Positions 3,415 to 59,447 of a stretch of DNA of 64,000 nucleotides are shown piece by piece. Positions within the stretch are counted from its first letter, which is position 1; the number at the start of each line of letters is the position of its first letter. Below the pieces are notes generated by a model, which had not been told where the DNA came from, ran no database searches, and worked only from the letters and a program-made list of their open reading frames with translations. Both the position numbers and the translations under genes were made by a program. Source of the stretch: Acidobacteriota bacterium. GTDB taxonomy: Bacteria > Acidobacteriota > Terriglobia > Terriglobales > SCQP01. The DNA is taken from the NCBI GenBank assembly GCA_004299485.1, contig SCQP01000018.1, forward strand, positions 62,001-126,000, given 5' to 3'.

Positions 3415-4917
3415 ATGCGCCGTTATTTACCGTTTTTGCTGCTGAGCGTGATTGCCGTTGTCGCCTGCTCGTCGGCCGGATCGAAAGCCGCCAAGCCGGA
3501 TCCGCGCCTGACCGGAGCGTATATGAGGCCGGCGCAGCAAGGCTGGTATTTTGTGCATCTGCAAGGGCCGCCGGGCACGATCGGCTACCAGAACGGCTAT
3601 TTACTGGCGCCGCGAATTGAGGATTTGCTGCAGGTGGTAGAGCTGGAACAGACGCACGACAGCCACCGGCCCTGGAGTTTTTTCCGGACCGAAGCGAAAG
3701 CAGAGATGTGGCCGCACATCGAGGCGGAATACCAGCAGGAGTTGCAAGGAATTGCCGACGGCGTGAACGCCCACGGCGGGCACGTGGACGTGTGGGATAT
3801 CACGGCCCTGAACGCGCTGGAGGAGTGGAGCTACTTCATTGAGCAGTGGGACAAGAACCATCCGCAACAGAAAGTGGCGCAGGCGCAGCACCGGACTGGG
3901 GCTACGGGCCCCCAGCCCGGTGCGGGCATAAGCGGGTCGCTCGGCGCAGCCGAGCGCGGCCCCGCGCCAATCAAAGCCCACTATCCCGGTGCGGGCGAAC
4001 ACTGCAGCGCCTTTGTGGCGACGGGCGCGTATACGAAAGACGGCAAGATCGTGCTTGCCCATAACGACTGGGCCAATTACCTGGACGGGGAACGCTGGAA
4101 CATCATCTACGACATCGCGCCGGAGCACGGCTATCACTTCGTCATGGACGGGCTGCCAGGCGTCATTCACAGCGCCGACGATTTCGGCGAAAACGCCGGC
4201 GGCATCATCATCACCGAAACCACCATCAGCGATTTTCATGGTTACGCGTTCAACAAGATTCCGGAATTCGTGCGGGCACGCAAGGCGATGCAGTACGCCT
4301 CGTCGATCCAGCAGTTTGCCCAGATCATGGAGGGCGGCAACAACGGCGGCTACGCCAACAACTGGCTGGTGGGCGACACCAAGACGAACGAGATTGCCGA
4401 TTTGGAGCTGGGACTGAAGGTGGTGACGCTGTCTACGTCGAAGAGCGGCTTCTTCGTGGGCTCGAATTTCCCGGTCAGCCCCAAGCTGGCCAGGGAAGAG
4501 ACGACCTTCAACCGGAAGGATCCGGCCAACAGCGAAAACGCGCGGCATACGCGCTGGCTGCAGTTGATGAAGCAGTACAAGGGCAAGATCGACGTCGCAG
4601 ATGCGAAGAAGTTTGAGAGCGATCACTACGACGCGATTTTGCACAAAATCAACCCGGACTACCGGACACTGTGCGGACACGGAGAAGGGCAACCGACCGG
4701 GGACATTCCTCTGGATATGGGAGCGGTCGAAGGCAAGGCCACGGACGCGGCGCTGGCGGCCAATTTGTCGTTCTGGGCGGTGGAGGGGCGGCCGTGCGGC
4801 GAAAGTTTTGTGGCGGCCACGTTTTTGAAGACCCACCCGCAATTTGCCTGGGAAGCGCCGGAGCTGCACGACATGCCTGGCCATGCCTGGATCGAAATTA
4901 AAACCGGCGGAAAATAG
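3415..4917 (+). CDS. C45 / phospholipase-B-like Ntn hydrolase, lipoprotein, copy 1
   Basis: This 500-residue protein has a signal peptide ending in a lipobox (VVAC, Cys about residue 19), so it is probably a lipoprotein. The ATG at 3415 was chosen because it gives an intact signal sequence preceded by GAGGAA, and because it matches copy 2. The predicted N-terminal nucleophile after autocleavage is Cys197 in the motif HCSAF. Downstream blocks (AHNDWANY, GVIHSADDFGENAGGIIITET, NNGGYANNWLVGD) match the acyltransferase/amidohydrolase C45 and phospholipase-B-like superfamily. The substrate is unknown. Compared with the adjacent paralogue it carries a 31-residue insertion just before the nucleophile, encoded by an interspersed repeat (3880-3972). 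Confidence 0.8.
   Translation: MRRYLPFLLLSVIAVVACSSAGSKAAKPDPRLTGAYMRPAQQGWYFVHLQGPPGTIGYQNGYLLAPRIEDLLQVVELEQTHDSHRPWSFFRTEAKAEMWPHIEAEYQQELQGIADGVNAHGGHVDVWDITALNALEEWSYFIEQWDKNHPQQKVAQAQHRTGATGPQPGAGISGSLGAAERGPAPIKAHYPGAGEHCSAFVATGAYTKDGKIVLAHNDWANYLDGERWNIIYDIAPEHGYHFVMDGLPGVIHSADDFGENAGGIIITETTISDFHGYAFNKIPEFVRARKAMQYASSIQQFAQIMEGGNNGGYANNWLVGDTKTNEIADLELGLKVVTLSTSKSGFFVGSNFPVSPKLAREETTFNRKDPANSENARHTRWLQLMKQYKGKIDVADAKKFESDHYDAILHKINPDYRTLCGHGEGQPTGDIPLDMGAVEGKATDAALAANLSFWAVEGRPCGESFVAATFLKTHPQFAWEAPELHDMPGHAWIEIKTGGK
3880..3972. repeat. In-frame palindromic repeat element, copy in C45 gene
   Basis: These 93 bases (31 codons) are absent from the tandem paralogue at the equivalent point (after codon VA, before K.xYP). 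They contain a hairpin with the apex GGC-GCA-GCC flanked by CGCTC/GAGCG stems. Forty-one bases (3929-3969) are identical to 22368-22408 in the MazG region. Reading frame is preserved. Confidence 0.85.
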
Positions 4918-4978: not shown

Positions 4979-6385
4979 ATGCGCCGTTACCTACCCTTAT
5001 TGCTACTGGGAGTGATTGCCGTCGTGGCCTGCTCGTCGGCAGGTTCGAAAGCGGCCAAGCCGGATCCGCGCCTGGCCGGGGCGTACATGAAACCGGCGCA
5101 GGATGGCTGGTATCTGGTCCACCTGCAGGGCACGCCCAGCGACATTGGCTTCCAGAACGGCTATTTGCTCGCCCCGCGCATCGAGGATTTCCTGCAAGTG
5201 GTCGAGCTGGAGCAGACGCATAACGGTCATCGGCCCTGGAGCTTTTTCCGCACCGAAGCCAAGCAGGTGATGTGGCCCTATATTGAGCCGGAATATCAGC
5301 AGGAGCTGCAAGGCATCGCCGACGGCGTCGATGCGCACGGCGGCCACGTGGACGTGTGGGATATCACGGCCATGAACGCGTTCGAGGAGTGGAGCTACTT
5401 CCTGGAGCAGTGGGACAAAGATCATCCGCAACAGAAGGTTGCCAAGCTGGATTATCCCGATGTGGGCGATCACTGCAGCGCCTTTGTCGCTACCGGCGCC
5501 TATACCAGCGACGGCAAAATCGTGCTGGCGCACAACAACTGGTCACCCTACATGCAGGGCTCACGCTGGAACATTATTTATGACATTACGCCGCAGCACG
5601 GCTATCACTTTGCGATGGACGGACTGCCGGGCGTGATTCACAGCGCCGACGATTTCGGCATCAATTCCGCCGGCATCATCATCACCGAGACCACCATCAG
5701 CGACTTCCATGGCTACAACTTCAACGGCGTGCCTGAGTTTGAGCGCGCGCGCAAGGCGATGCAGTATGCGTCGTCGATCAAGCAGTTCGCGCAGATCATG
5801 GAAGACGGCAACAACGGCGGTTATGCCAACAACTGGCTGGTGGGCGACACCAAGAACAACGAGATTGCCGACCTGGAACTGGGGCTGAAGGTGGTGACGC
5901 TGTCTACGTCCAAGAACGGCTTCTTCGTGGGCTCGAATTTTCCGGTCAGCCCCAAGCTGGCGAAGGAAGAAACGACCTTTAACCTGAAAGACCCGGCCAA
6001 TAGCGCCGACGCCCGGCATACGCGCTGGCTGGAGTTGATGAAGCAGTACAAGGGCAAGATCAACGTCGCCGCGGCGGAAAAGTTTGAGAGCGATCACTAC
6101 GACGTGATTCTGAAGAAGATCAACCCGGATTCCCGCTCGCTATGCGGGCATGGCGACACCCATCCGCCGTTCCATGATTCCGGCGCGGTCGAGGGCAAAG
6201 TGACGGACGCGGCGCTGGCGAACCATCTGTCGTTCTGGGCGGTGCAGGGGCACCCGTGCGGGGAGAGCTTCAACGCGGCGGCGTATCTGAAGGCACATCC
6301 GCAGTACGACTGGCAGGCGCCGGAACTGCGCGACATGCCGGGGCACTCCTGGACGGAATTCACGCTGGGCCTCAAGAGCAACTGA
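4979..6385 (+). CDS. C45 / phospholipase-B-like Ntn hydrolase, lipoprotein, copy 2
   Basis: This 468-residue tandem paralogue of the preceding gene is strongly conserved along its length. It has the same lipobox signal (LLGVIAVVAC) and the predicted nucleophile is Cys166 in HCSAF. The family blocks AHNNW, GVIHSADDFG and NNGGYANNWLVGDT are intact. The 31-position offset of the nucleophile relative to copy 1 exactly equals the repeat insertion in copy 1, so this gene preserves the ancestral form. The start at 4979 is fixed by the signal peptide and GAGGAG. It ends three bases before the stop of the convergent PIN gene. Function is likely extracytoplasmic amide or acyl hydrolysis; substrate unknown. 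Confidence 0.82.
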   Translation: MRRYLPLLLLGVIAVVACSSAGSKAAKPDPRLAGAYMKPAQDGWYLVHLQGTPSDIGFQNGYLLAPRIEDFLQVVELEQTHNGHRPWSFFRTEAKQVMWPYIEPEYQQELQGIADGVDAHGGHVDVWDITAMNAFEEWSYFLEQWDKDHPQQKVAKLDYPDVGDHCSAFVATGAYTSDGKIVLAHNNWSPYMQGSRWNIIYDITPQHGYHFAMDGLPGVIHSADDFGINSAGIIITETTISDFHGYNFNGVPEFERARKAMQYASSIKQFAQIMEDGNNGGYANNWLVGDTKNNEIADLELGLKVVTLSTSKNGFFVGSNFPVSPKLAKEETTFNLKDPANSADARHTRWLELMKQYKGKINVAAAEKFESDHYDVILKKINPDSRSLCGHGDTHPPFHDSGAVEGKVTDAALANHLSFWAVQGHPCGESFNAAAYLKAHPQYDWQAPELRDMPGHSWTEFTLGLKSN

Positions 6386-22246: not shown

Positions 22247-23173
22247 TTGCCCCCAAGGCAGAACCGGCGCGGCAAGGCCGCGAAACTCGGCAAGCCAGCT
22301 CGCCCCAGTGGAACGAAGAGGCGCGGCCCCGGCGGGGCTGGGCCGCGGGCCCCAGCCCTGCCGAGCGTAAGCGGGTCGCTCGGCGCAGCCGAGCGCGGCC
22401 CCGCGCCAGTCAATGAAGCCCGCTTCCAGCGCGTCGTCGAGATCATGCGCCGGCTGCGCGCGCCCAACGGCTGCCCCTGGGACCGCGAGCAGACCTTTGA
22501 CAGCATCCGGGCGAATACGCTGGAGGAAGCCTACGAGGTGCTGGAGGCGATTGGCGAGCGCGACTGGGAAGGCCTCCGCGAAGAGCTCGGGGATTTGCTG
22601 CTGCAGGTGGTGTTCTACGCCGAAATGGCCGAGGAGGAAGGCAAGTTCACGATTGCCGGCGTGCTGGAAGAGCTAGCTGACAAGCTGGTGCGGCGGCATC
22701 CACACGTGTTCGGGAAAGAGAAAGCGGCCAACGCCGACGCCGCGCTGGCGCGCTGGAATGCAGCCAAGGCGGCGGAAGGCAAGCGCGAAGACCGCTCGGC
22801 GCTGGCGGGCATTCCCCGGGCGCTGCCGGGACTGGCAGAAGCGCAAAAGATGGGGCAGCGGGCGGCGCGGCAGGGCTTTGACTGGGACAATGTCGAGGGC
22901 GTGTGGCGGAAGCTGGACGAAGAGTTGGCCGAACTGCGGACCGCGGAAACGCGGGAAACGCGGGAAGAAGAAATGGGCGACGTATTGTTTACGGCCGCCA
23001 ATCTCGCCCGGCACATGGGCGTGGATCCGGAAGCGGCGCTGAAGCACGCCAACCAGAAGTTCGCCCGCCGCTATCGGGCGATGGAAGCGCTGGCGCCGGA
23101 TGCGCGCGGGCGCACAGCACAACAGTGGGAGGAACTATGGCAACGGGCGAAGCGCGCGGAAGCGCAGGAGTAG
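22247..23173 (+). CDS. mazG: MazG nucleoside triphosphate pyrophosphohydrolase with repeat-derived N-terminus
   Basis: The body is a two-domain MazG: GCPWDREQTFDSIRANTLEEAYEVLEAI, then the EELGDLLLQVVFYAEMAEEE motif (EExxExxD metal site), then HPHVFG and a second domain ending EEEMGDVLFTAANLARHMGVDPE. It hydrolyses (d)NTPs to monophosphates for pool sanitation. The start is uncertain: the conserved first helix (FQRVVEIMRRLRAPNG) has no in-frame ATG before it except far upstream. The nearest candidate is TTG at 22247, giving an extension of about 54 residues that translates the repeat at 22318-22413. An internal ATG at 22445 would remove half of the first helix. The 3' end overlaps the GNAT gene by 37 bases. 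Confidence 0.85.
   Translation: MPPRQNRRGKAAKLGKPARPSGTKRRGPGGAGPRAPALPSVSGSLGAAERGPAPVNEARFQRVVEIMRRLRAPNGCPWDREQTFDSIRANTLEEAYEVLEAIGERDWEGLREELGDLLLQVVFYAEMAEEEGKFTIAGVLEELADKLVRRHPHVFGKEKAANADAALARWNAAKAAEGKREDRSALAGIPRALPGLAEAQKMGQRAARQGFDWDNVEGVWRKLDEELAELRTAETRETREEEMGDVLFTAANLARHMGVDPEAALKHANQKFARRYRAMEALAPDARGRTAQQWEELWQRAKRAEAQE
22318..22413. repeat. Palindromic repeat element, copy at MazG N-terminus
   Basis: Bases 22368-22408 are identical to 3929-3969 in the C45 gene and are read in the same frame (SGSLGAAERGPAP). The upstream half is more divergent but shares the GGGCT...GGGCCCC(A)GCCC blocks. It sits between the mazG start region and the first conserved MazG helix. Confidence 0.85.
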
Positions 23174-29867: not shown

Positions 29868-29904
29868 GCGACCAACGGGAGCGACCAGGGCAAATGGCGA
29901 GCCA
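29868..29904. repeat. Second repeat family, partial copy
   Basis: It matches the 3' 40 bases of the full copies at 50722 and 59341: GCGACCAACGGGAGCGACCA, then GGGCAAA and TGGCGAGCCA. It lies upstream of the minus-strand membrane protein gene, in the same orientation as the other copies. Confidence 0.75.
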
Positions 29905-50672: not shown

Positions 50673-50721
50673 CCGTTTCTGCAAGCGCAGTGGATGGCCC
50701 CAAGTGGAGCAAACCGGCGGC

Positions 50722-50829
50722 GGCAGCTCGGAGGAGCCCTGAGCGCCAGCGGGCGCACCCTGCCGGGAATCGAAGCCCGCACTCCAACCGGCCAACGGGA
50801 GCGACCAGGGGTAAAAAGTGGCGAGCCAC
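50722..50829. repeat. Second repeat family, full copy upstream of ccmF
   Basis: About 108 bases, roughly 88 percent identical by eye to 59341-59447. Shared landmarks are GGCAGCT.GGAGGAGCC, CCAGCGGGCG, AATCGAAGCCC, CCAACGGGAGCGACCAGGG and the terminal hairpin GTGGC-GA-GCCAC. It occupies most of the gap between vapC and ccmF. Confidence 0.85.
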
Positions 50830-51568: not shown

Positions 51569-53623
51569 TCAATTCTGCGGGTGCAGGTGCGCGCGGAAGA
51601 AGTCATCGACGCGGCGCCAGGCGTCATGGAGGACGAAGGCGCGGTCAAAGTAGTGGAATTCGCCGGGGTACATCATGAACTGCACCAGGCTGCCTTTGCC
51701 GTCTTTCAGGATGCTATCGAGCAGCAAGGTGGTCTCCCAGAAGGGTACGTTGACGTCGGCGGTGCCGGCCAGGATCAGCAGCGGCCGGGCCAGGCGGTCC
51801 ATGTGGGTGCTGGTGGCGCCGCGCGCGTAGCCTTCCGGATTTTGCTCGGGCGTGCCCATGCGCTCGGCCATCCAGCCGGAGTGATACGGGTCTTTGTAGT
51901 ACCAGGCGGGATTGACCAGACCGGCGACATCGACCGCGCAGGCAAACAGCGTCGGATCGGTCGTGATGGCGCGCAGGGTAAAGTAGCCGCCGTAACTCAG
52001 CCCCCAGACGCCGATACGCTGGGGATCGACGTAGGGCAGCGATTTTAGGTAGTTGGCGGCGAGGCGGGCGTCGGTGGCATCTTCGCCGCCGACATCGCGG
52101 TAGACAGCGGTGCGCCAGTCGCGGCCATAGCCGATGCTGCCGCGGTAGTCGGGCGCGATGACCACGTAGCCCTCCTGCAGCAGGTACTGGTGAAACGAGT
52201 AGTAAACCGCTTCGTTGCGGTCGGTGTGCCAGCCATCATAGTTCTGGTTGACGCCATCGGGATGAATCCAGACGATGGCGGCGTGGCGCTTGCTTTTGTC
52301 GAAATGCGGCGGCAGGAACAGCCACGCTGAGACGGATTTGCCGTCGGCGGCGCGATAGTGAATCAACTCGGGCGCGACGAAATGGCGGCCGCGCAGCGGC
52401 GGCGGCATGGAGTCGGTCAAGCGCAGCGGCGTGCCGCCGGCGGAGGGAATGACGTAAAGATCGGCGGAGTGCTGGGCGTCGGTGTGCTGGTAGGCCAAGC
52501 GGCGGTCATGCGGCGACCACATGGGGCCAAGGTTGGTGCCGCGGCCGTGCGTGAGCCAGGTAACGGTGGCATGCGCCGGGTCGCCGTGGAGCGCGACCAC
52601 GCCGATCTGGCGGTCGCCGGGATGGCCGGGCGCATTGGCATCGAAGGCGATGCGCGTCGAGTCGTGCGACCAGGCTGCGCGCCAGCTCGCAAAGGCGCCG
52701 CGCGTCACCTGCACCGCGGGGCCGCCGGAGGCAGGCATGACGTAGATCTGATCCCAGCCGCTGGCGTCGCTGCCGAACTCGATCCATTGGCGGTTGGGCG
52801 AAATTTTGGGCCGCGCGTCACGGCCGAACATGCTGAAGAATTTCGGCTCGTGGTCGGTATAGACGGCGCGCGGCGCACCGCCGCGGGCATCGAGAAAATA
52901 GATGGCGCGGGATTTGGAGTCAGGTGCGACGGCGCTGGCGAGCAGCGTGTCAGCGTTTAACCATGCGGCGCCGTAACCGCCGGCGGGCATCGGCACCTTG
53001 CCCGGCGCACCGCCGCTTGCGGCCACCACGTAAAGCTGGCCGGGCTCATAGCCGGTGACGCGGAAAATGATCTTGTCGCCGACTTCGGGCGCGGAGAAAT
53101 TGTGCGGTTGCGGCCCGCCGCCCAGCATGTACGCCAGCCGGCGGCCATCGGGCGACCAGCGCAGCGCGCGCGGCTGTGCCTGCAGTGGAACGGAGATCGA
53201 GGCACCGCTGGCGAGCGTGGTGATGACGATGGCGTTACCATCGACGCGGGCGCTGCGCACACCGTCGGGCGAAAGCACGGCGGCCGTACGCTCGCGCGCG
53301 GCCGGAGGCAAAGCGCGAGAGCCGGGTTGGGACTCCCCGGGCCCCCGGCCCGGCCGAGCCTCAAGCGGGTGGCGTGGCGCAGCCACGCCCGGCCCCGCAC
53401 CCGTCAATAGTTGTGGTGTGGCCGGATGCTCCGCGCTCACGCTGTAGCGCTGATGCACGCCGCCAATGTCCCAGTCGAAGCTGACGCTCTGACCGTCCGG
53501 CGACCAGCGCCAGGCGGAGGGGTACCGGATGGCGACGACATCCTGAATGCGGAACGGTTTTGTCTGCGCCGCCAGGGCCGCACCCAAAACCGCCAGCGCG
53601 AGCAACAGGCGGCGAAGACTCAT
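51569..53623 (-). CDS. S9-family serine peptidase (dipeptidyl/acylaminoacyl peptidase)
   Basis: This 684-residue secreted enzyme has a signal peptide (MSLRRLLLALAVLGAALAAQ). A seven-bladed beta-propeller of WD40-like/PD40 repeats (about residues 25-400) is followed by the alpha/beta-hydrolase domain. The catalytic triad is Ser543 (WGLSYGGYFTL), Asp623 (GTADVNVPF) and His657 (GEFHYFDRA), approximate numbers. It hydrolyses oligopeptides at the N-terminal end. In the first propeller blades, residues about 74-107 are encoded by an interspersed repeat (53320-53407), read antisense to the other in-gene copies. It is 17 bases downstream of the RND adaptor. Confidence 0.9.
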   Translation of the reverse strand: MSLRRLLLALAVLGAALAAQTKPFRIQDVVAIRYPSAWRWSPDGQSVSFDWDIGGVHQRYSVSAEHPATPQLLTGAGPGVAAPRHPLEARPGRGPGESQPGSRALPPAARERTAAVLSPDGVRSARVDGNAIVITTLASGASISVPLQAQPRALRWSPDGRRLAYMLGGGPQPHNFSAPEVGDKIIFRVTGYEPGQLYVVAASGGAPGKVPMPAGGYGAAWLNADTLLASAVAPDSKSRAIYFLDARGGAPRAVYTDHEPKFFSMFGRDARPKISPNRQWIEFGSDASGWDQIYVMPASGGPAVQVTRGAFASWRAAWSHDSTRIAFDANAPGHPGDRQIGVVALHGDPAHATVTWLTHGRGTNLGPMWSPHDRRLAYQHTDAQHSADLYVIPSAGGTPLRLTDSMPPPLRGRHFVAPELIHYRAADGKSVSAWLFLPPHFDKSKRHAAIVWIHPDGVNQNYDGWHTDRNEAVYYSFHQYLLQEGYVVIAPDYRGSIGYGRDWRTAVYRDVGGEDATDARLAANYLKSLPYVDPQRIGVWGLSYGGYFTLRAITTDPTLFACAVDVAGLVNPAWYYKDPYHSGWMAERMGTPEQNPEGYARGATSTHMDRLARPLLILAGTADVNVPFWETTLLLDSILKDGKGSLVQFMMYPGEFHYFDRAFVLHDAWRRVDDFFRAHLHPQN
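53320..53407. repeat. In-frame palindromic repeat element, copy in S9 peptidase gene
   Basis: The plus strand reads AGCGGGT, GGCGTGGC-GCA-GCCACGCC, CGGCCCCGCACCCGTCAA. Order and flanks are as in the C45 and mazG copies, but both stem strands are changed in a compensatory way. Inserted codons are Gly/Pro/Arg-rich and lie between conserved propeller strands. Confidence 0.75.
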
Positions 53624-53640
53624 CCTGTGACTATAGCCAG

Positions 53641-54786
53641 TTAAGGAACGACAGTCACGGCCTGACCGGGACGGAGGTCATCCTCGGCCGCGGTCACGAC
53701 GCGGTCGCCAGGCGCGAGAGAGCCGAAGACCTCAAGGTTGGCGCCATCGGCAAACCCGGTCGTAACATCTACCCACTGCAGCCGGCCATCGGCGCCGATG
53801 CGCTCGACAAAGGTGCGCTCGCTGCTGCGCACCACGGCAGAAGCGGGAACGAACAAAGAAGGCTGAGCGCGTTGGAAGCTCCACTGCACCCGCACGAACA
53901 TGCCCGGCGCCAGCACAGAGCCGGAGTTGGCGACGTCGAGCTCAATCGGCATGGAGCGGGAGTCGCGGCGGACACTATGGGCGACGCGCGCGACCACGCC
54001 GGTGAAGGTGCGGCCGGGCTGATTGGCCACGGTAAACGGAAGCTGCGCGCCGGTGGGAATGCCGACGGCCTCGGCCTCCGGCACATCGACGACCAGGCGC
54101 AGGGGATCCAACTGCTGCAGCTCAAACAGCGGCGGGGCGCTGGGGCCGGCGAGCGCGCCCACGCTGGCATCACGGCGGATGATGGCGCCGGTGAAGGGCG
54201 CCACCACGCGAAGATAATCGGTGAGCGCAGCCTGCGAGGCGAGCGCGGCGGCGGCGGCTTGCTCCGCCGCCTGGCGCGACTCCACTTCGGCCTGATCGGC
54301 CGCGACGGCATGCTCGGCCACCTGAATATCGTTGCCCGCCACCGCGCCCGCCTCGGCGGCCGCGGCGCCCTGCAAACGCTGCAACGTCGCCTGATCGCGT
54401 TGCAGGGTCGCTTGCGCTTCGAGGCGCAGCGCTTTGGCGGACGACAGCCGATGCTGAGCCTCGGCGCGTTTGGCGCTCAGGTCGGGCGCATCGAGTTCGG
54501 CCAGCAACTGGCCGGCGCGGACCTGGCTGCCGCGGTCGGCATAGAGTTTGCGGATGAAGCCGGGCACGCGCGCCTGCAGGGTCGCATCCTGAAAGGCAGC
54601 CAGCTCCGCGGGCAGCAGCATGGTCAGGCGCGGGCGCGCGCGGCGCACGGCGACCAGCCGCACCGCGCGCGCTTCCGCGTGGGCGGTGGCCGGCAGCGAA
54701 CTGGGGTGGGCGTTGCAGCCGGTCAGCACGACTCCCGCACCCAGGACAACCAGGGTCAGCCAGATGGTTGGCGTTACCTTACGCAT
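53641..54786 (-). CDS. RND efflux periplasmic adaptor (MFP)
   Basis: This 381-residue lipoprotein-type adaptor (LVVLGAGVVLTGC near residues 14-26) has a lipoyl domain (PGFIRKLYADRGSQVRAGQLLAELDAPDL), a long helical hairpin (about 90-190, Ala/Gln-rich), and a beta-barrel and MP domain (IPTGAQLPFTVANQPGRTFTGVVARV). It bridges the inner-membrane pump and TolC channel encoded upstream. Its start overlaps the pump's 3' end by 8 bases. Confidence 0.9.
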   Translation of the reverse strand: MRKVTPTIWLTLVVLGAGVVLTGCNAHPSSLPATAHAEARAVRLVAVRRARPRLTMLLPAELAAFQDATLQARVPGFIRKLYADRGSQVRAGQLLAELDAPDLSAKRAEAQHRLSSAKALRLEAQATLQRDQATLQRLQGAAAAEAGAVAGNDIQVAEHAVAADQAEVESRQAAEQAAAAALASQAALTDYLRVVAPFTGAIIRRDASVGALAGPSAPPLFELQQLDPLRLVVDVPEAEAVGIPTGAQLPFTVANQPGRTFTGVVARVAHSVRRDSRSMPIELDVANSGSVLAPGMFVRVQWSFQRAQPSLFVPASAVVRSSERTFVERIGADGRLQWVDVTTGFADGANLEVFGSLAPGDRVVTAAEDDLRPGQAVTVVP

Positions 54787-59335: not shown

Positions 59336-59340
59336 CCGGT

Positions 59341-59447
59341 GGCAGCTTGGAGGAGCCTTGAGCACCAGCGGGCGGACCCTGCCGGCAATCGAAGCCCCCA
59401 CTCCAGGCGACCAACGGGAGCGACCAGGGCAAAAAGTGGCGAGCCAC
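59341..59447. repeat. Second repeat family, full copy upstream of tolC-like gene
   Basis: A 107-base copy matching 50722-50829 with about 13 substitutions and one indel. It ends with the GTGGC-GA-GCCAC hairpin and lies 5 bases from the TolC start, so it must form the 5' leader or promoter region of the efflux operon. Confidence 0.85.

Follow-up and report, generated by a model that had tools for sequence, protein, structure and literature searches.

The window analysed here, 64,000 nt of an Acidobacteriota contig, contains two tandem genes for C45/phospholipase-B-like Ntn hydrolases, and the first of them codes for a segment in front of the predicted catalytic cysteine that has no counterpart in the second. 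This raises the question where the additional segment came from and how the enzyme copes with it. A sequence-only reading of the locus had regarded it as an exact in-frame insertion of a palindromic repeat. The relevant features are:

3415 to 4917, plus strand: copy 1 (P0001), C45/phospholipase-B-like Ntn hydrolase of 500 residues that bears the insert (assigned by profiles and AlphaFold/Foldseek)
4979 to 6385, plus strand: copy 2 (P0002), tandem paralogue of 468 residues with the empty site, 82% identical to copy 1
3883 to 3975, plus strand: the insert, a palindromic repeat of type A, 93 nt (delimited by the ends that are conserved among about 40 aligned copies)
3888 to 3923, plus strand: left hairpin of the insert, GCACCGG...CCGGTGC (RNA fold)
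3932 to 3965, plus strand: right hairpin of the insert, GCGGG-tcGCTCGGC gca GCCGAGCgcgg-CCCGC (RNA fold and covariation)
4003 to 4005, plus strand: codon for the predicted nucleophile Cys197 of copy 1 (invariant column C197)

Both copies score above the cut-offs for NCBIfam NF040521 (C45 family autoproteolytic acyltransferase/hydrolase) and Pfam Phospholip_B (PF04916), with E-values of 5.5e-41 and 1.3e-16 for copy 1, respectively. The AlphaFold model of copy 1, which was built from a 31-sequence alignment, has a mean pLDDT of 87.9, and a Foldseek search with this model returned the 66.3 kDa protein (PLBD2, 3fgw/3fbx) first and isopenicillin N acyltransferase, as precursor and as mature enzyme, next.

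The alignment of copy 1 and copy 2 shows a single large gap of 31 residues (residues 156-186 of copy 1), which corresponds to a net gain of 93 nt or 31 codons just 5' of the nucleophile codon. The proposed exact 31-codon insert is thereby confirmed, and the predicted displacement of the nucleophile from Cys166 to Cys197 agrees with the alignment, since Cys197 is invariant across 31 aligned sequences. By homology the insert comprises positions 3880-3972 and by the ends of the repeat (GCGCAGC...ATCAA) positions 3883-3975, two placements that are equivalent at the level of the alignment. The additional DNA had also been described as GC-rich and hairpin-forming, and RNA folding indeed gives two GC-rich hairpins with -59.1 kcal/mol and a z-score of -2.75.

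Of the aligned C45-type sequences, which come from the window and from 31 loci of relatives, P0001 alone has the segment. Every other aligned homologue is without it, including the C45 gene of a genome of the same genus (G003). The linker at the insertion point varies in length among the other aligned C45 homologues, and the site is, as judged from this alignment, a naturally length-variable linker. In the AlphaFold model, residues 162-188, which match the insert very closely, form the sole internal stretch with a pLDDT below 50 and are located between the helix 150-161 and the strand after Cys197; the insert is therefore predicted to be a disordered loop. Some C45 homologues from another genus (L042, L043 and L044 from G011, G006 and G013) possess Gly-rich extras of their own, about 10-20 residues long, in the same linker before the cysteine. 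The same-genus orthologue L063/L171 (G003:C212:21027-22411) changes reading frame at about query residue 320, owing either to a frameshift in the gene or to an error of sequencing.

The inserted DNA belongs to a large repeat family. The pattern of the right hairpin (up to 3 mismatches) matches 104 times in the 3.3 Mb genome and the reversed control pattern not at all; the copy number is far above chance. There are about 100 copies besides the one in copy 1. Neither of the two outcomes that would have spoken against the sequence-only reading, a segment shared by distant orthologues of copy 1 or a lack of further genomic copies, is thus observed. The recurrence noticed earlier within the window holds for two sites:

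22340 to 22415, plus strand: second copy of the window, located upstream of a MazG domain within an open frame, possibly gene-internal
53313 to 53408, plus strand: third copy of the window (type B, 96 nt), which lies antisense in an S9 peptidase gene, in frame and near the N-terminus (open reading frame 51572-53677, minus strand), a probable gene-internal insertion

A full copy consists of the left hairpin, the right hairpin and the right end CCARTCAAT. The right hairpin is the most conserved unit, also occurs alone, and its arms covary across 77 distinct sequences (one pair, for instance, is C-G in 38 and T-A in 29). For the left hairpin of type B, no covariation clearly above that of shuffles was found, the copies being too alike, so that the signal is clear in the right hairpin only. 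Type B has a length of 96 nt in 32 of 37 copies and a mean pairwise identity of 0.865. For type A, 95 nt is the commonest length, and all copies but two outliers measure 92-95 nt. No Rfam family matches the 64-kb window. A MiaB/RimO-like gene (L027, G000 C8:120218) contains a half element, consisting of the right hairpin only and adding about 15 residues, which suggests that a single hairpin may move alone.

The insertion in copy 1 is not an isolated case. For the survey of gene-internal copies, the stretches around the copies were taken and the spanning open reading frames were scanned with Pfam, and the following census covers these stretches. At least 19 in-frame copies, distributed over 18 genes, are flanked on either side by homologous sequence, as seen from Pfam matches and orthologue alignments, which bears out the earlier proposal of a palindromic repeat inserted in frame in coding genes. 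Pfam domains flank, or are split by, the copy in DnaE, SRAP, RNase R (RNB), UvrA and PheT (two copies), and likewise in a nitrite/sulfite reductase (NIR_SIR), a DUF5947 protein, a GT87 protein, the MiaB/RimO-like protein and a DsbD-redoxin fusion. Further hosts are a TreZ-like amylase, an ApgM-like metalloenzyme, a GNAT protein, an SMC-type protein, a Fic protein and two BNR/sortilin proteins, and the C45 gene completes the set. For TreZ, ApgM, GNAT and UvrA, homology on the second side was taken from the orthologue alignments. The copies occur in both orientations relative to the gene. For 12 of the 18 genes, orthologues from congeners lack the insert or are shorter by its length, and these empty sites are clearest for RNase R, GT87, SMC, ApgM, TreZ, BNR (32 residues) and C45. 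PheT (L016:545-3091) even contains two separate in-frame copies (G000 C10:23770 and 23986), about 40 residues apart on either side of a segment of the B1 domain.

These hosts also bear on the suggestion that the insert in copy 1 is tolerated because it lies in a propeptide that is removed. The insert would be situated towards the C-terminus of the N-terminal chain, about 10 residues before the predicted cleavage point. The suggestion is not supported, however. At least 18 other in-frame copies reside in proteins without such a propeptide, among them UvrA, DnaE, SMC, RNase R and PheT, so one need not invoke a propeptide that is particularly tolerant, and a flexible linker is enough. In the Ntn hydrolases closest in structure, PLBD2 and isopenicillin N acyltransferase, the N-terminal piece remains bound as a subunit after cleavage.

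In the census of gene-internal copies, which is based on a home-made gene caller, 46 of 103 copies lie inside predicted genes. Only 22 of the 71 full-length copies are inside a gene with a margin of at least 75 nt at both ends, compared to 73% of the sequence (p 1e-13), and insertions in genes are therefore strongly depleted. The two types contribute unequally to the gene-internal copies (18 of 37 for type B, 4 of 34 for type A; p 9e-4), and the four type A copies concerned are 93 or 94 nt long, none having the commonest length of 95 nt. In most copies only one antisense frame of type B is open, and six of the seven antisense type B copies use it; there is some circularity in this figure, since a closed frame would have escaped the gene caller. 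Hidden broken genes were considered for 15 copies located between co-oriented genes, and this was rejected, since none of the 15 splits one gene. Overall, the bias in length and frame points to selection for frame and translation. These results agree with a translated segment and agree poorly with splicing or ribosomal bypass.

The observations can be brought together as follows. A non-autonomous palindromic element of two hairpins and 93-96 nt, which has no gene of its own, would spread through the Acidobacteriota genome, and copy 1 of the duplicated gene would have received one such element in the variable linker ahead of its catalytic cysteine. Since the length gained is divisible by three and the insert is free of stop codons in the frame used, the gene stays open, and the ribosome would read straight through. 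The enzyme would tolerate the product, a disordered loop of 31 residues rich in Gly, Ala and Pro, which may be selectively neutral. Genome-wide, only frame-neutral and stop-free insertions would survive inside genes, and the remaining copies would be intergenic. It is very likely that such a translated mobile palindromic repeat, in frame and tolerated as a loop, is the explanation for the locus. Type B might go one step further. With its fixed 96 nt (32 codons), several stop-free frames and no target-site duplication, it could have made genes part of its habitat. It is possible, although this remains a tentative view, that type B is selfish DNA on which selection acts to keep it frame-neutral, with its off-length sister lineage, type A, staying mostly intergenic.

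Other explanations have to be compared with the translated repeat. The insertion might have damaged copy 1, leaving a decaying duplicate that is covered by copy 2. An intact and similar paralogue is indeed adjacent and a loss would be tolerable, but we regard this as unlikely, since the frame is open, the catalytic columns are intact and the same type of insertion is found in PheT and SMC, genes that are expected to be essential. Moreover, dN/dS between copy 1 and copy 2 is 0.14, which indicates purifying selection on the pair, although this figure does not isolate the period since the insertion. It is far less probable that copy 1 has retained the 31 residues as an ancestral or functional element, such as a regulator within the maturation linker, and that copy 2 and the other homologues have lost it. 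In favour of this, the site adjoins the cleavage and nucleophile region and the linker is variable in length; however, the DNA is a member of a family of about 100 copies in unrelated genes and intergenic sites, and every other aligned homologue lacks the segment. Taken together, these two facts rule out an ancestral origin.

In organelles, certain hairpin elements are skipped during translation or do not persist in the product, and the strong hairpins within the coding sequence could suggest that the insert is likewise absent from the final protein, by bypass or by removal at the RNA or protein level. Then a frame-keeping length and the use of a stop-free frame would be needless, and no intein or intron family was recognised, so that we give this explanation hardly any weight. 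An artefact of assembly or binning might be suspected in a metagenome-assembled genome of 22 contigs with related repeats at contig ends. Yet the insertions lie in the middle of contigs, are in frame, differ in sequence and are unique to each site, which makes an artefact extremely improbable. The translated mobile repeat therefore remains the preferred explanation.

The ends of the repeat are without terminal inverted repeats and the hairpins are subterminal. Matches between the flanks, as expected for a target-site duplication, are no more frequent than in shuffled flanks, and a conserved target site is not above chance. Other REP-like elements are moved by single-strand HUH transposases, and a transposase acting in trans, probably of this type, would mobilise the present repeat, too. 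However, this is inferred only, since neither PF01797 nor NF047646, the profiles for RAYT/Y1 transposases, matched in the own genome (98.8% complete) and none of the 12 Y1 loci of relatives examined is flanked by the repeat. The transposase gene may have been lost, may be unbinned or may be of another kind.

Each of the five genomes of the genus has the repeat family, as does at least one related genus of the same family. The pattern of the right hairpin is absent from three other genomes of the family that were examined, and a DNA search of the other family sampled in the order (46 genomes) did not detect the repeat. Acidobacteria MAGs account for nearly all of the named homologues, from which the taxon was deduced. 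The type B sequence was found in the own genome alone among 299 genomes of the class, with three candidates scored per genome. Congener genomes were also checked for gene-internal insertions, and no secure case was found among the candidates. A uvrA-associated copy in one of these genomes (G004) was rejected, as it lies upstream of the conserved start.

The likeness to the Rickettsia palindromic elements (RPEs) put forward in the sequence-only reading is well founded, as a palindromic family of many copies is inserted in frame in unrelated genes whose orthologues are without the insert. RPEs are palindromic insertions that extend many unrelated proteins, in frame, by tens of residues, for the most part at exposed sites (PMC3767692, PMC10969869). 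The palindromic elements of Rickettsia (RPE-1 to RPE-10) and Wolbachia resemble the repeat described here in being short, palindromic, in frame and present in many unrelated genes. However, the RPE unit measures about 100-150 bp compared to two hairpins and 93-96 nt here, and its host is an obligate intracellular alphaproteobacterium, whereas the present repeat is GC-rich and resides in Acidobacteriota; RPEs were compared by description only. In addition, R. japonica orthologues share their insertions (PMC3767692), while the insertions found here are not shared with congeners.

Intragenic REPs with GTAG or CGTC tags are known from Opitutus terrae, R. conorii, Thauera and others; as dimers they encode 20-30 residues, often in genes for DNA repair or replication and tRNA synthetases, including uvrA, dnaE and DnaE2, and sometimes with two REPs per gene (PMC3733652). 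This set of host genes is strikingly like the present one, with uvrA, dnaE, a tRNA synthetase and two copies in one gene. CGTC repeats, which also occur without a linked transposase, are defined by CGTC before the stem, A-T first pairs, a stem of 8-9 bp and a CCA tail (PMC3733652). In our family the GTAG tag is missing (of the 71 full-length copies, only 8 contain GTAG or CTAC at any position). CGTC stands in front of the right hairpin in 25 of 37 copies of type B but in only 5 of 34 of type A, and a GCCA tail is present, but the stem is longer and GC-rich. Moreover, a REP dimer is a simple inverted dimer, whereas the two hairpins here differ in sequence. Since GTAG is missing and the other CGTC features are not clearly present, the repeat is classed as separate, but of the same kind as RPEs and intragenic REPs. 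The subterminal hairpins, the lack of terminal inverted repeats and the absence of a detectable target-site duplication are shared with MITEs of the IS200/IS605 type and RAYT-mobilised REPs, but no Y1/RAYT gene was found in this genome. A classical MITE differs by its target-site duplication.

Two other repeat families were noticed. A second, unrelated repeat of 99 nt occurs in the window at 50718-50816, 59337-59435 and 29868-29894 and has at least 40 copies in the genome with 92-96% identity (162 first-look candidates). It is more uniform and perhaps more recently active, and in places it adjoins type B palindromes and BNR genes (G000 C3:1698/1739 and C12:36277/36374). A third hairpin family (GAGAGCGGGCCGCGCGGCGCAGCCGCGCTGGGTGCCCGCGATTAAT) coincides with assembly breaks or lies close to them, in some cases as tandem copies, with occurrences at contig ends of the own genome (G000) at C3:102, C3:3127, C4:16784, C6:55453, C7:33 and 144, and C12:157825.

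The repeat described here is another instance of REP-like repeats without a transposase found in the genome. It extends coding insertions of the RPE kind to an uncultured lineage of the Acidobacteriota, with about 20 in-frame insertions in a single genome, core genes included. The sister subfamilies of unequal length provide an internal control for the reading-frame filter, and the insertions constitute a natural set of loop insertions with which to study where proteins tolerate 31 extra residues.
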